DNA of 57,474 bases from assembly GCA_019912545.1 (NCBI GenBank), contig JAIOIK010000114.1, positions 1 to 57,474 on the forward strand. The letters run 5' to 3'. Both the position numbers and the translations under genes were made by a program. The stretch is from Ignavibacteria bacterium. GTDB taxonomy: Bacteria > Bacteroidota > Ignavibacteria > Tepidaquicellales > OLB5. Below the pieces are notes generated by a model that was not told the origin of the DNA, searched no databases, and saw only the letters and a list, made by a program, of their open reading frames with translations. This document shows positions 43,629 through 49,218 of the stretch, in pieces. Numbering within the stretch: the stretch's first letter is position 1; each line of letters starts with the position of its first letter.

Positions 43629-43744
43629 AAGATCAGATAATTCGCCTGACTGGAACTATTTTTTGCACCCACACTTCCCCAAAGTGGATAATCTTTTGAT
43701 TCTAATTCGTAATTCTCAATTCCTAATTGAGAATTGAAAGATTG

Positions 43745-43818
43745 TACCCACGACAGGAGTCGAACCTGTGGCCTGCGGTTTAGGAAACCGACGCTCTATC
43801 CTACTGAGCTACGTGGGC
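43745..43818 (-). tRNA. tRNA-Arg(CCU)
   Basis: Cloverleaf on the minus strand: acceptor GCCCACG/CGTGGGT with one G-U pair at the end, D-stem GCTC/GAGC, anticodon loop TTCCTAA with anticodon CCT, T-stem ACAGG/CCTGT with loop TTCGACT. 74 bases, discriminator A, no encoded CCA. It decodes AGG. The first anticodon-stem pair (T-C) is unpaired in this reading. The accessory helicase locus begins about 190 bases on its 5' side. Confidence 0.93.
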
Positions 43819-44011: not shown

Positions 44012-45361
44012 TCAATTAATGTCATCATAAGGATAAGCATCTCTAATGTCAGGAGGAGGTTCTGGTGTAGGTGCGTTTCTGATTTCATCCGGAGTTCGAA
44101 CATCGAAATCCCCTTCAAAAGGCATACTTAATCCATATGCTACCGATATTCTGTGATAATGTTCTTCCCCAATTGATGATTCAATATTTTTGGGTTTATG
44201 CAAATCCTCCTCTTTGACCTTAGGAGTTCCGTGACTATTTGCAATTTGATTTATCTCAGAAAGTACTTTCTGATAAATAGGAATGTTTCGACCCCCTCCA
44301 CACATAAAAGTAATTATACCCGTCTTATATTCCGGAGCATTGGGATACTTTTTTAGTAAAGCAGAAATATTTTCCTGAACAGCTGTGTAACACTTATTTG
44401 AAAATTCCAAATCAATAGTTTTAATATCCAATTTTTCAGCAACATTGGGGACATAAGCTTCTATCACAGTTGGAATTGCTTTTATTGGATTCTCAGCTCT
44501 ACCTGCTTGCGATAGCCATTCATTTACAAATGTTTTCACATTGTTTATCCTATTCTTATGAATTTCAAAACCGCCTAATTGTTCAACTTCACCGGTAAAT
44601 ATTGAAAACTTTAATTTACGTTCTCTTTCAAACAAGTTGAATGTCGATATATCTAATGTACCTGCCCCAATATCAATTAACATATGAAGTGCCTCTTTTC
44701 TTACGTCAGATTTTGCATAACCCAATACCTGGGCAATTACTTCCTGAAGAACATTAATAGAAGCAATGTCCTTTACGGTTACAGACTTTTTGTGCATTTC
44801 TTCACATACTTTTTCAGATGCAACCAAAGTGATATTCTCATGCAATGACAAAGACCATGCGGCGTAAGCAATGTCCATAAAATATTCCTTGATTTCGTTG
44901 AATTGTTTACCGATTGAAGGTACGCCCAAATTAAGATTCCAACTTACTTTGAATTGTTTATATGATTCTTCATATTGTTTTAGAAACCAAGTCCTAGATA
45001 ACTGAATAACACGTGCTAAATATCCTACGGTTAATACTTCTGGTGTAGTCTCCAATTCCATTTCCGGTACAAATTCTAATTGTGCTTCATCATTCCCTAG
45101 TAACCTTAATTTAAGTTCACGTAGAGGGATGGTATCATCAACACTGGCTAATTGAATATCACCATTCTTATCAAAAAAAGGACGAGTAGGCATAAGGAAT
45201 TTACTATCAGGATAACCATTTTCAAAAATTACTGGATATGCTCTAATATACTCTGGAACCTGAAGGACTACTTTGGAACTTGATGTACCAAAATCCAAAC
45301 CCATAATTACATTTAGTTCCTTTTCTTTTTGTTCGTTTGAAAATTGAGTTAAGTTTTCCAT
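44012..45361 (-). CDS. Hsp70/actin-like ATPase partner of the SNF2 helicase
   Basis: 449 aa. All three ASKHA nucleotide-binding motifs are present: phosphate-1 GLDFGTSSSKVVLQV (D23-K30), phosphate-2 LIDIGAGTLDIST (D230-D237) and adenosine motif ITFMCGGGRNIPIY at about 350. There is no substrate-binding beta domain of a true DnaK; instead the C-terminus ends in a proline-rich tail (PTPEPPPDIRDAYPYDD). It therefore looks like a dedicated Hsp70-related ATPase, not a general chaperone. It starts 9 bases after the helicase stop, so the two are one operon. No family name can be assigned by eye. The pairing with an SNF2 helicase suggests nucleic-acid or polymer remodelling, perhaps defence. Confidence 0.7.
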   Translation of the reverse strand: MENLTQFSNEQKEKELNVIMGLDFGTSSSKVVLQVPEYIRAYPVIFENGYPDSKFLMPTRPFFDKNGDIQLASVDDTIPLRELKLRLLGNDEAQLEFVPEMELETTPEVLTVGYLARVIQLSRTWFLKQYEESYKQFKVSWNLNLGVPSIGKQFNEIKEYFMDIAYAAWSLSLHENITLVASEKVCEEMHKKSVTVKDIASINVLQEVIAQVLGYAKSDVRKEALHMLIDIGAGTLDISTFNLFERERKLKFSIFTGEVEQLGGFEIHKNRINNVKTFVNEWLSQAGRAENPIKAIPTVIEAYVPNVAEKLDIKTIDLEFSNKCYTAVQENISALLKKYPNAPEYKTGIITFMCGGGRNIPIYQKVLSEINQIANSHGTPKVKEEDLHKPKNIESSIGEEHYHRISVAYGLSMPFEGDFDVRTPDEIRNAPTPEPPPDIRDAYPYDDIN

Positions 45362-45370
45362 ATATTGTAT

Positions 45371-48300
45371 TTATATTAAGTTGATTAAACCGATTGCAAT
45401 TTCTTCTTTTTCGGAAGTTATGGATTTTCTATTTCCAATCTCTAGCGTTTTCCTTTCAAACCGACTTTCTAATGCTTGCATCTTTCCTTCTGTTGCCTTA
45501 ACAAGAGACTTTCTATCAAAAGCAATGTGCTTTTGTTTTATTTCTTGTAGTGTTTCTATTTGATTCTCTAAATGTAACTTTAAAGTCTTCAATTGTAGAT
45601 TAGCTCTGTCTTCGTTCTGCAATTCTAAACTTAGGACAAAATCATCATAGTTTGTGTCAGCTATTGATAAACATCTATCATTTGCGAGGTCGTAGATTCT
45701 ATCAAAATCGATTATATTACTTGCCTCAAGCCAATCCTCACCTAAAACTGCCGCAGAAGTTACGAGCATTTCAGAGTCTTTGTCTGATAAGTTCTTCTCG
45801 TCATCAATATTTATAGCAACGTAAAATAGTTTTTCTATATCCTGCAAACCCTTTATTGACCATTTTTGAATAGCAAATAAGTACCTACCATTTTTTATTT
45901 CCAAATTAGCTCTATCCTTCTTTAAGATTATGCTCATAACAGGGAAAAATGGAAAGCTTTCCTTTTCAATCATCTTGCTTACGAATCTTACTATAGGGTG
46001 TATTTGATTAATTACTTCTGCTCTATCAGTACTTTCACTTATTAACTTGTTTTCAAATCTGCATTTTATAGGCATTTGAGAATTGCTTATTAATCTTGTG
46101 TTTAATGCAATTCTATTTATTTTTATAAAATCATCAAGTTCATTTTTTGCTTCATTTGTAAGCTTAATAAAATACTCTAATTTATCTTCTTGTATCTGTT
46201 GAAGTTCTGTACCAGGAAAATTCTTTCGTAAATAATCAACTACATAAATTTGAATATCTTTTCCAGTAATCCACCTATTCATTTCCTTAATAGCCTTAAC
46301 TTGATTCAATATGTAATCACCATATGCAATTAAGTGTGCAGCTTCTTTCTCCAATCTTTCTTCATCATTTCTAATATTTTCAAGTGCTTGAGCTGTTTGT
46401 TCAATTCTTTCATCCTCTTGTTGAGGCGTAAGTTTTGAAGTGAATAATTCTACAGTTAACTTTTGTATTTCTTCCCCAATAATTGGTTCTAAACCCCCCA
46501 GCGCTCTGTTGAATATTTTCAATCTATCATGAAGTTTCATATAAATTCGTGCATCAATTGTACCGTTATATAACAGGTTCACTATATCGATTTTATCTGC
46601 TTGTTGTCCAAGCCTATCAATCCTACCGATGCGCTGTTCTATCTTCATAGGATTCCAGGGCAAATCATAGTTAATTAATATTCTACAAAACTGTAAGTCG
46701 ATACCTTCGCTACCAATCTCAGATGACAAAAGTATATTATGATTTTCTGTTTCTCTAAAATCTGTCAATAATTCTTCTTTGTCTTTTTTCTGGTCACCTG
46801 TCAGCAACACAGCTTTAATGTTTTCCGTTTCTAATCTACGCTTAAGATAATTAAGAGTGCCTTTGAAGTAAGAAAACAATACCAATTTTTCATTTTTTTT
46901 GTCATTTAAGATTCCCTTAATTACTCTAATGAGGCATTTGTACTTTGAATCATTATTATATAATTCGTCATAATCGCCTAATTCTTCAATTTTGGAAATT
47001 AACTCTCTTATTATGGGGCCAACCTTTTCTGCATCACCCTGAAATCCATAATCCTCATACAACTGCTCAGATAATTTTACTGCTTTCTTTTTCCACTCAT
47101 ATAGTGCAGCGGGTATAGAACTTGACATCTGCCTTTGAGGAGTTGTAAGTATAAATCCTTCATACTGGTAATTATTGAGACAAAAGTCTCTCACTATTTC
47201 AGTAACTTTGTCATAGAATTGTTTTTCCAAAGAATTTAAATCAATCAAATGTAATTTAGGGTCTCTGACAACCTTTAGTTCAACAACATCTCTTCTTCTG
47301 GTTCTTGTAATAACATTACTTAACAAATTGATCTGGTCAAGTCGAGACGCAATTTCACTTCGTTTCTCAAAACTCTTCAAATCATTTTCAGAAGGAGGTT
47401 TAAGCAAGAAATTCCTTAATTGCTGATTATCACTAAGTAGTTCATTAGAAAGGGCATTCGTTATTAACTCATTAAACTCAGTTCTATTCATTTTACTACT
47501 TAGAACTGCTTCCCTTGCTTTAATTAAAGGTTCGTTTGCCTTTAAAATTTCATCGAATACATTAGGCTGATTAAATGTTGTTTCATCTACAATGTTTAAT
47601 AACTGATACAAGTCATCGCTTCTCAAATGGATTGGCGTTGCAGACAGTAAAACTATATAATCAGAAACACCTCTCAATAATCGTCCTAATTTAGAAGTCT
47701 TCTTATCAGTTTTCTTTATATCTCCTAGTCTTAGGTAATGAGCTTCATCAATGACCAACATATCAATAAGTGACTCTTCGTTCTGTCTATCTAATAATAA
47801 TTTTCCTAACAATGTAGTCGGTCTTTTATTATTAGAACTTTCATCGTCCCATCCTTTTGTCGGTCTCAATCCCTGCATGCTAGCTATAATAGCAAATGAA
47901 GAAAGATGATTATGTTTTGCATGTTCTAAATATGTCTTTGCTTCTCTAGCATCTACTATAACTGCATCAATATTAAATCTGCTTTTTAGTTCCCTTTTCC
48001 ATTTTTCTCTTAAGAATGCTGGACATAAGACAAATAGTCTTCTAAGTTCATATCGATTTTTAAGTTCTGTCCAGATTAAGCCTGCCTCAATGGTTTTACC
48101 TAATCCAACTTCATCTGCAATTAGCAAACCATTGCTAACTGAATTTAGCATTCTAATTACAGGTTTAAATTGGTATGCATAATAGTCAGTATTGGAAACA
48201 TCCATGCTATACAACAAATCCGCAAGTCTTCCATTAAGCCTAACATGCGTCAATAATTTTCTTAAATCTCTGGATTGACCAATTTTCCCTTTTTTAATTA

Positions 48301-48508
48301 GGTCTAACGGATGTTCTTTAACTCCCGTAACTACTTCCAGTTGATTTTCTGTAAAGTACTGATACTGATTTGTATCAAAAAAATGAATTTGCCACAACAA
48401 TCGTTTCTCCTTTGTTACAGGGTCTTCTCTTGTTATTGTCGTTCCGGTACAGGTTCCTATTCGACTCGGGTTTGCAACCAACCGAACTGTCTGTCCAATA
48501 CTTAGCAT
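45371..48508 (-). CDS. SNF2/RapA-like helicase
   Basis: 1045 aa. A small SH3/Tudor-like N-terminal domain (about 1-62: IGQTVRLVANPSRIGTCTG) is followed by a two-lobed SNF2 ATPase: Walker A ADEVGLGKTIEAG (D132-T139), DEAH at 254-257, LLSATPIH, and the second lobe with SSEIGSEGIDLQFCRILIN and QRIGRIDRLGQ. The linker region between lobes is long (about 300-540). The C-terminal 350 residues are helical, with coiled-coil-like stretches, and end in a basic helix. Similar domain order is seen in RapA and in DrmD of DISARM systems. No nuclease motif is visible. It translocates on double-stranded DNA in its relatives; the target here is unknown. Confidence 0.82.
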   Translation of the reverse strand: MLSIGQTVRLVANPSRIGTCTGTTITREDPVTKEKRLLWQIHFFDTNQYQYFTENQLEVVTGVKEHPLDLIKKGKIGQSRDLRKLLTHVRLNGRLADLLYSMDVSNTDYYAYQFKPVIRMLNSVSNGLLIADEVGLGKTIEAGLIWTELKNRYELRRLFVLCPAFLREKWKRELKSRFNIDAVIVDAREAKTYLEHAKHNHLSSFAIIASMQGLRPTKGWDDESSNNKRPTTLLGKLLLDRQNEESLIDMLVIDEAHYLRLGDIKKTDKKTSKLGRLLRGVSDYIVLLSATPIHLRSDDLYQLLNIVDETTFNQPNVFDEILKANEPLIKAREAVLSSKMNRTEFNELITNALSNELLSDNQQLRNFLLKPPSENDLKSFEKRSEIASRLDQINLLSNVITRTRRRDVVELKVVRDPKLHLIDLNSLEKQFYDKVTEIVRDFCLNNYQYEGFILTTPQRQMSSSIPAALYEWKKKAVKLSEQLYEDYGFQGDAEKVGPIIRELISKIEELGDYDELYNNDSKYKCLIRVIKGILNDKKNEKLVLFSYFKGTLNYLKRRLETENIKAVLLTGDQKKDKEELLTDFRETENHNILLSSEIGSEGIDLQFCRILINYDLPWNPMKIEQRIGRIDRLGQQADKIDIVNLLYNGTIDARIYMKLHDRLKIFNRALGGLEPIIGEEIQKLTVELFTSKLTPQQEDERIEQTAQALENIRNDEERLEKEAAHLIAYGDYILNQVKAIKEMNRWITGKDIQIYVVDYLRKNFPGTELQQIQEDKLEYFIKLTNEAKNELDDFIKINRIALNTRLISNSQMPIKCRFENKLISESTDRAEVINQIHPIVRFVSKMIEKESFPFFPVMSIILKKDRANLEIKNGRYLFAIQKWSIKGLQDIEKLFYVAINIDDEKNLSDKDSEMLVTSAAVLGEDWLEASNIIDFDRIYDLANDRCLSIADTNYDDFVLSLELQNEDRANLQLKTLKLHLENQIETLQEIKQKHIAFDRKSLVKATEGKMQALESRFERKTLEIGNRKSITSEKEEIAIGLINLI

Positions 48509-48721
48509 AAAGTTAAAAATGAGTGAATAAACAAATTACTTCTTAATAGGTTGAGTAAATTTAAGCATGTATAGATGTCCGCCAACATCTATTATTTCGA
48601 GATCAGGAATTCTATCTTTTTGTGTCTTGCTGTGATAATTATATGGATTACAAGGAATTACTATAAAACTAATATAAACAGCCAATGGATTCCCATTAGC
48701 CTACATATATTTATACATTGC
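48509..48721. promoter_or_regulatory. upstream region of the helicase operon
   Basis: 213 AT-rich bases between the helicase start and the small membrane protein gene. It must hold the helicase promoter, but no operator palindrome or sigma-factor motif can be named. The open frame on the plus strand here (48575-48775) is probably not a gene. Confidence 0.35.
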
Positions 48722-49036
48722 TTAATAACTAAACTCGTCTTTTTTCGGTTCTTTGGATTTATCAAGCGCATCTAAGAACATTATCATGCGGTGATTCATG
48801 CTGTCCAGGAGCTCAATGACAATACCAAAGCTCAAATAAAGCATACCTGAAACTATTGATGAGAGAATAATAGCTCCGCCCGCTACGATCTTAATTAGGT
48901 AGATCTGTTCAAGGTATGGATTTGGAGCGCCCTTAAGGCTGGCATAAAGGCTTAGTGCATCGGAAATAACATATATGCCGGCAATAATGCCGATAAATAT
49001 GGTTACAAATCCTAAAATCTTAAGTAATGTTTGCAT
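48722..49036 (-). CDS. small two-helix membrane protein
   Basis: 104 aa, not recognised. Two hydrophobic segments: about 6-28 (LKILGFVTIFIGIIAGIYVI) and about 48-72 (IKIVAGGAIILSSIVSGML), then an amphipathic C-terminus with LLDSMNHRMIMFLDALDKSK. The predicted arrangement is an integral membrane protein with a cytoplasmic tail. AT content is like that of the core genes rather than the helicase locus. Confidence 0.6.
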   Translation of the reverse strand: MQTLLKILGFVTIFIGIIAGIYVISDALSLYASLKGAPNPYLEQIYLIKIVAGGAIILSSIVSGMLYLSFGIVIELLDSMNHRMIMFLDALDKSKEPKKDEFSY

Positions 49037-49170: not shown

Positions 49171-49218
49171 ACCTCACCCCCTGCCCCTCTCCTCTCAGGA
49201 GAGGGGTCGGGGTGAGGT
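49171..49218. repeat. large intergenic palindrome
   Basis: ACCTCACCCC at the left pairs with GGGGTGAGGT at the right, and the centre CCCCTCTCC/GGAGAGGGG forms the rest of the stem around a short loop. It is a single 48-base hairpin of a type widely dispersed in bacterial genomes. It lies 12 bases past the stop of the dehydrogenase gene and could also act as a terminator. Confidence 0.82.

Follow-up and report, generated by a model that had tools for sequence, protein, structure and literature searches.

SNF2 proteins of the RapA type occur in described defence operons of prokaryotes, as BrxHII in BREX type 3 and as ArmA in ARMADA (PMC12839542, PMC12458937). Their partners there are a methylase, PglZ or a YprA-type protein, and an Hsp70-like partner goes unmentioned in these two sources (PMC12839542, PMC12458937). 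Hsp70-like proteins are also known as parts of prokaryotic defence, namely CnuD of CoCoNuT and the Hsp70-like components of other conflict systems; they are tied to McrB/McrC or to GTPases, not to SNF2 (PMC11090510; PMC7159879). In eukaryotes, the SNF2 motors of SWI/SNF and INO80 are bound by actin-fold (actin/Arp) subunits (PMC5969521, PMC6098158).

The locus presented here combines an SNF2 motor with a partner from the actin/Hsp70 superfamily. The arrangement resembles that of SWI/SNF and INO80, although the bacterial partner is Hsp70-like rather than actin-like, no HSA domain was seen, and in bacteria it is the genes that are found paired. The likeness is probably convergent, and the eukaryotic parallel is instructive by analogy, not a proof of relationship. 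As a system, the pair appears to be without earlier description. No published pair of SNF2 and an Hsp70-like protein was found in the open-access literature, a scope that mostly leaves aside subscription papers and preprints, and term searches of the CoCoNuT, BREX, Dnd, YprA/ARMADA, HEPN and Kaur 2020 papers brought up no account of the pair (PMC11090510, PMC12839542, PMC10853773, PMC7159879, PMC12458937, PMC3710099).

The two genes and their genomic site

The window, the whole stretch of 57,474 nucleotides of Ignavibacteria DNA that was analysed, contains the two genes on the minus strand. The first gene of the operon (45371..48508) encodes a predicted DNA translocase of the SNF2 (Swi2/Snf2, SF2) type, 1045 aa in length and with a RapA-like architecture; the second (44012..45361) encodes an Hsp70-fold (ASKHA) ATPase of 449 aa that consists of a nucleotide-binding domain only. 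Both open reading frames are intact and start with ATG, and the SNF2 gene lies upstream of the ATPase gene with a gap of 9 bases, exactly as the preliminary description had placed them. Among the open reading frames of the window there is no third gene in the operon, and no defence genes are visible among the neighbours. The pair occupies the lowest-GC kilobases of the window (0.302–0.352, against mostly 0.36–0.43 elsewhere), in agreement with the AT-richness noted before. A short open frame at about 48536-48620 (minus strand), ending DLEIIDVGGHLYMLKFTQPIKK, is situated just upstream of the SNF2 gene and may be what is left of a gene that has decayed.

The tRNA-Arg previously seen beside the pair is tRNA-Arg(CCT) at 43744..43818 (minus strand). 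It forms one border of a variable site, the other being a gene for a DUF6814-like membrane protein of 104 aa (48722..49036, minus strand); both serve as markers and lie outside the system. To find the site in relatives, the SDR and 3-hydroxyacyl-CoA dehydrogenase genes that flank it were traced by orthology, and four intervals (L048, L049, L050 and L051) were compared. All four relatives have the tRNA-Arg(CCT) and the DUF6814 gene as borders, while the content of the site, with product names judged from sequence, ranges from DinB-like genes (G009) through DinB, UmuD/UmuC, SRAP and DUF72 types (G006), and a similar set with additional genes (G002), to a single small gene (G004). When the window's genome is compared with these four, it alone carries the SNF2 and ATPase genes at this position. 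Since the borders are constant, the contents differ and the pair is found at this position in the window's genome alone, the locus belongs to the accessory DNA, and its site is a variable one in the genus.

The ATPase gene was absent from all 58 other related genomes searched, and only one other genome of 395 in the phylum (G232) contains it. A further weak match of the phylum search, in genome G215 (L003/L011), was rejected as a family relative, being a true DnaK-type protein with a substrate-binding region and without SNF2. As to marks of insertion, the window holds no second copy of the 3' end of the tRNA-Arg that could represent a tRNA-derived attachment repeat, and direct repeats at the borders were dismissed as chance-like. 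Upstream of the DUF6814 gene, at 49178-49212, there is a strong inverted repeat, rich in G+C and with a loop of 3 bases.

Family and fold of the two proteins

The SNF2 protein matches the Pfam families SNF2-rel_dom and Helicase_C, and no nuclease domain is found in it by Pfam. Its AlphaFold model (mean pLDDT 83.7) is most similar in the PDB to E. coli RapA structures, with an E value of 2e-32 and along most of its length, and the helicase motifs are all near-invariant across 46 homologues. The protein nevertheless differs from RapA itself, scoring 150.6 bits with the NCBIfam RapA equivalog NF003426, for which the cut-off is 576. We know of no ASKHA partner gene of RapA.

The preliminary description had called the protein RapA/DrmD-like. 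As a family label this is borne out by Pfam and NCBIfam, but the protein belongs to a clade of its own, apart from the DrmD of DISARM. In a tree that included 11 other SNF2 proteins and the second SNF2 of locus L080 as outsiders, the ATPase-linked SNF2 proteins form one clade with a support of 0.94, and no ATPase of the pair's family is found near any of the 11 SNF2 genes outside it. The nearest outgroup by tree distance consists of three loci with a parallel arrangement, in which SNF2 is directly followed by a gene of the sacsin/Hsp90 type (L152 9863-16347, L153 9821-16157 and L154 9728-16048). Here, too, an SNF2 gene is paired with that of a chaperone-fold ATPase, but the partner has 1,034–1,113 aa and an Hsp90-type sacsin domain, and is not of the Hsp70 type.

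The pair could alternatively be a DISARM class 1 locus, orphaned or in decay, with the SNF2 protein as its DrmD. The two share the same broad SNF2 family, and the PADLOC model PDLC02623 'DrmD' matches the window's SNF2 over its full length with 855 bits. The same model matches all seven pair SNF2 proteins scanned, and PADLOC recognises only this protein of the pair, as DrmD; automatic annotation may therefore partly mislabel the pair as DISARM. In a few pair loci, DrmA/DrmB-like genes are indeed present (see below). However, the window's SNF2 reaches only 391 bits with the DISARM_DrmD equivalog NF038317, below its cut-off of 610, and in 12 pair-bearing genomes the pair SNF2 proteins score 385–468 bits with this model. 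One of these, a cyanobacterial genome, contains a bona fide DrmD of 1371 bits at a place other than that of the pair (468 bits), and at the bona fide DrmD locus examined there is no ATPase of the pair's family nearby, in contrast with the near-obligate Hsp70-like partner of the pair. The MZB/DrmB domain (PF09369; MZB/DUF1998) has no match in the whole genome of the window, no DrmA, DrmB or DrmMI genes lie beside the pair there, and the pair SNF2 proteins form a clade separate from DrmD. On the equivalog score, the MZB search, the tree and the neighbourhood, the candidate of a DISARM remnant was rejected; we consider it very improbable.

The ATPase matches no Pfam family above cut-off, HSP70 included. 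Its AlphaFold model (pLDDT 89.5, pTM 0.90) has an Hsp70-type nucleotide-binding fold, and the best 50 Foldseek matches in the PDB are all of the Hsp70 type (Hsp70/DnaK), with E values of about 1e-10 to 1e-13 and TM scores of about 0.4–0.5 by query length and up to 0.56 by target. The phosphate-1 (GLDFGT), phosphate-2 (DIGAGTLD) and adenosine (GGG) motifs are complete, and 57 homologues conserve them, so that fold and conservation uphold the earlier assignment to the ASKHA ATPases. Residues D23, G25, K30, K84, E207, D230, G232, G355 and G356 are invariant across these homologues, and T26, T235 and D237 nearly so. In an alignment with the true DnaK-type protein L011, residues D23, G25, T26, K84, E207, D230, G232, T235 and G355 are common to both. 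K84, E207, D230 and T235 presumably correspond to the catalytic residues K70, E171, D194 and T199 of DnaK. Because the catalytic residues are conserved, the protein is predicted to bind and hydrolyse ATP.

In the AlphaFold model the nucleotide-binding domain fills the 449 residues, and a substrate-binding domain with its lid is absent. The view that the protein is not a general chaperone thus holds. CnuD, by comparison, is reported to possess a substrate-binding domain and to have Walker-like motifs that are degenerate, in contrast with the invariant catalytic residues of the pair ATPase (PMC11090510). Neither the window's operon, nor any conserved third gene across loci, links the pair to a CnuB/CnuC (McrB/McrC-type) operon. 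The PADLOC candidate PDC-M61 was also discarded for the ATPase: model PDC-M61B gives 31 bits over 73 residues only, a generic DnaK motif match, and it matches other Hsp70-type open reading frames in most relatives as well.

The proline-rich end described before (APTPEPPPD, with YPYDDIN as the last residues) is real in the window's ATPase but is not a hallmark of the family, most members of which end in a short conserved motif. This motif, [YF][VI]xK[DE]Q[VM], forms the very C-terminus of 40 of 71 ATPases, where about 0.02 would be expected from its internal frequency; it was picked post hoc, after the sequences had been viewed. In the window's ATPase it is lost or changed. That the motif is terminal suggests a tail used for docking. 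In four of the 71 ATPases (L073, L075, L080 and L099), DnaJ-type CxxCxGxG zinc motifs stand at the end and replace the usual tail.

Pairing, mobility and neighbourhoods

The constancy of the pair was analysed by scanning 84,980 genomes with the N-terminal 127 residues of SNF2 only, upstream of the helicase motifs. This confirmed 177 relatives, the best 80 of which were kept as loci, and the ATPase was then detected at the loci with an iterated ATPase profile. In 72 of these 80 loci it is the immediate neighbour of SNF2 and shares its strand (70 with a full-length SNF2 open reading frame, and L071 and L125 with a fragmented one). As these loci were retrieved independently of the ATPase, the adjacency is beyond chance. 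Among the eight unpaired loci, a contig end cuts five (L077, L084, L085, L094 and L104) and SNF2 is disrupted in two (L109 and L121). The last, L059 (3384-5516), has a full-length member of the SNF2 clade; downstream of it are genes for a coiled-coil-like protein and for another kind of Hsp70-like ATPase, the latter truncated at the contig end, as though it had taken the place of the family ATPase. The gaps between the two genes are mostly −30 to +30 bases, with a 4-base overlap frequent. SNF2 precedes the ATPase throughout, except in five cyanobacterial loci with the reversed order. In L080 the SNF2 gene that belongs to the pair is split but stands before the ATPase gene, and the locus has another, distinct SNF2 gene further downstream. 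Across 86 loci, each further gene family is limited to 9 loci at most, and the two-gene nature of the operon claimed in the preliminary description is thereby corroborated. The distances among SNF2 proteins correlate with those among the ATPases (r = 0.82, a value reached by none of 2000 permutations), a correlation that co-inheritance alone would yield.

The pair is present in more than 10 bacterial phyla. By title, the best 80 of the 177 relatives come from Pseudomonadota, desulfobacterial lineages, Acidobacteriota, Planctomycetota, Cyanobacteriota, Gemmatimonadota, Myxococcota, Bdellovibrio-type bacteria, Ignavibacteria, Cloacimonadota, Marinimicrobia and others. Six plasmid records from alphaproteobacteria and cyanobacteria contain relatives of the ATPase, each with SNF2 adjacent, and on two Sphingobium plasmids the pair is near parAB and mobilisation genes. 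In L005 a serine recombinase and an integrase flank the pair, one on each side. Given the plasmid copies, these flanks and the variable site in the genus, the unit is horizontally mobile. Across the 86 loci, integrases are found near 7 and WYL-type regulators near 9. Phage records gave no match for the ATPase, and viral contigs none for the ATPase or the N-terminal motifs of SNF2, the ATPase-only scan being blank in genome contigs also; a search of E. coli with one Photobacterium query at the DNA level was likewise negative.

The 136 nearest flanking genes matched 276 PADLOC models, as against 34 for 136 control genes (E<=1e-10); the counts are of models, which are redundant, and not of genes, and the control, 20 stretches of 20 kb from the window's phylum only, is not taxon-matched. 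Within these limits the enrichment accords with the defence association proposed earlier. When homologues were inspected for a constant housekeeping setting, none emerged, as the preliminary description had supposed from the window. The matches in the flanks include BREX, DrmA/DrmB, methylases and Hachiman. In L054 (6392-18554) an apparent BREX operon encloses the pair, with brxC-like and pglX-like genes on either side and all on one strand, and in L010 it is near pglX-, pglZ- and brxL-like genes, an HsdR-like (type I restriction) gene and an integrase. DrmA- and DrmB-like genes lie with NERD/UvrD-type helicases upstream of the pair in L105 (72-9237), and members of the same gene clusters are found in L078 and L110; these three loci possibly represent a DISARM-related composite system. 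In L006, on a plasmid, Hachiman and restriction genes adjoin the pair, and in L108 Vsr does. Many chromosomal loci thus belong to defence clusters, with no tie to one type of element.

Proposed function

From the neighbourhoods we infer a role in defence, and the DNA-remodelling or sensing role proposed in the preliminary description is conjectural in the same way. The best reading, to which we assign a probability of roughly 60%, is a mobile module in which an SNF2 double-stranded DNA translocase and its near-obligate Hsp70-fold ATPase subunit form one complex that acts on invading DNA. The Hsp70-fold protein would be an ATP-driven regulatory, switch or clamp subunit on the SNF2 motor, docking on it probably through the short conserved C-terminal tail; the long helices near the C-terminus of SNF2 (935-1026) are a further candidate interface. 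The unit has no nuclease or methylase, which makes an action driven by the motor the likeliest. The complex might load on foreign DNA and strip or block bound proteins such as polymerases or replication factors; alternatively, it might feed DNA to the nucleases or methylases of neighbouring systems (BREX, DISARM-like or restriction modules). As the pair itself is without a nuclease, any account of the harm done to invading DNA is conjecture.

That RapA is the closest solved structure to the pair SNF2 raises the alternative of a transcription or chaperone module, in which a RapA-like recycler of RNA polymerase and an Hsp70-type helper would give a benefit in stress or growth. The position of the window's pair among ordinary genes and the zinc motifs at the ends of four ATPases would suit such a module, but it would have to be reconciled with the patchy and mobile distribution (the ATPase being absent from the 58 related genomes), with the plasmids and defence islands in which the pair is found, and, for a chaperone, with the missing substrate-binding domain; we hold it to be unlikely. 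The unit could also serve mobile elements themselves, in maintenance, transfer or competition between elements, and not the defence of the host. The six plasmid records, among them the two Sphingobium plasmids with parAB and mobilisation genes, and the integrases near seven loci are in keeping with this, whereas the blank searches of phage records (with the ATPase) and viral contigs, and the many chromosomal loci in defence clusters linked to no one element type, argue against it and leave it rather improbable.

If the pair is indeed a defence module acting on invading DNA, it takes its place among the SNF2-based modules of this kind, and possibly signifies more. A tentative and rather doubtful extension is a so far unnamed class of DNA-acting defence machines in prokaryotes, whose SNF2 motor would always be accompanied by an actin/Hsp70-fold ATPase, parallel to the actin/Arp modules and probably convergent with them, and which would have a sister class with an ATPase of the Hsp90/sacsin type. 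For annotation, the pair is a warning that defence finders can label such loci DISARM from SNF2 alone. SNF2 motors are part of many prokaryotic immune systems, and little is known of their control. With a single SNF2 motor and a single putative ATP switch of the Hsp70 type, the pair is small enough to be purified and assayed, and would probe whether bacterial DNA motors are controlled by chaperone-fold ATPases in the way that eukaryotic ones are by actin-fold subunits.
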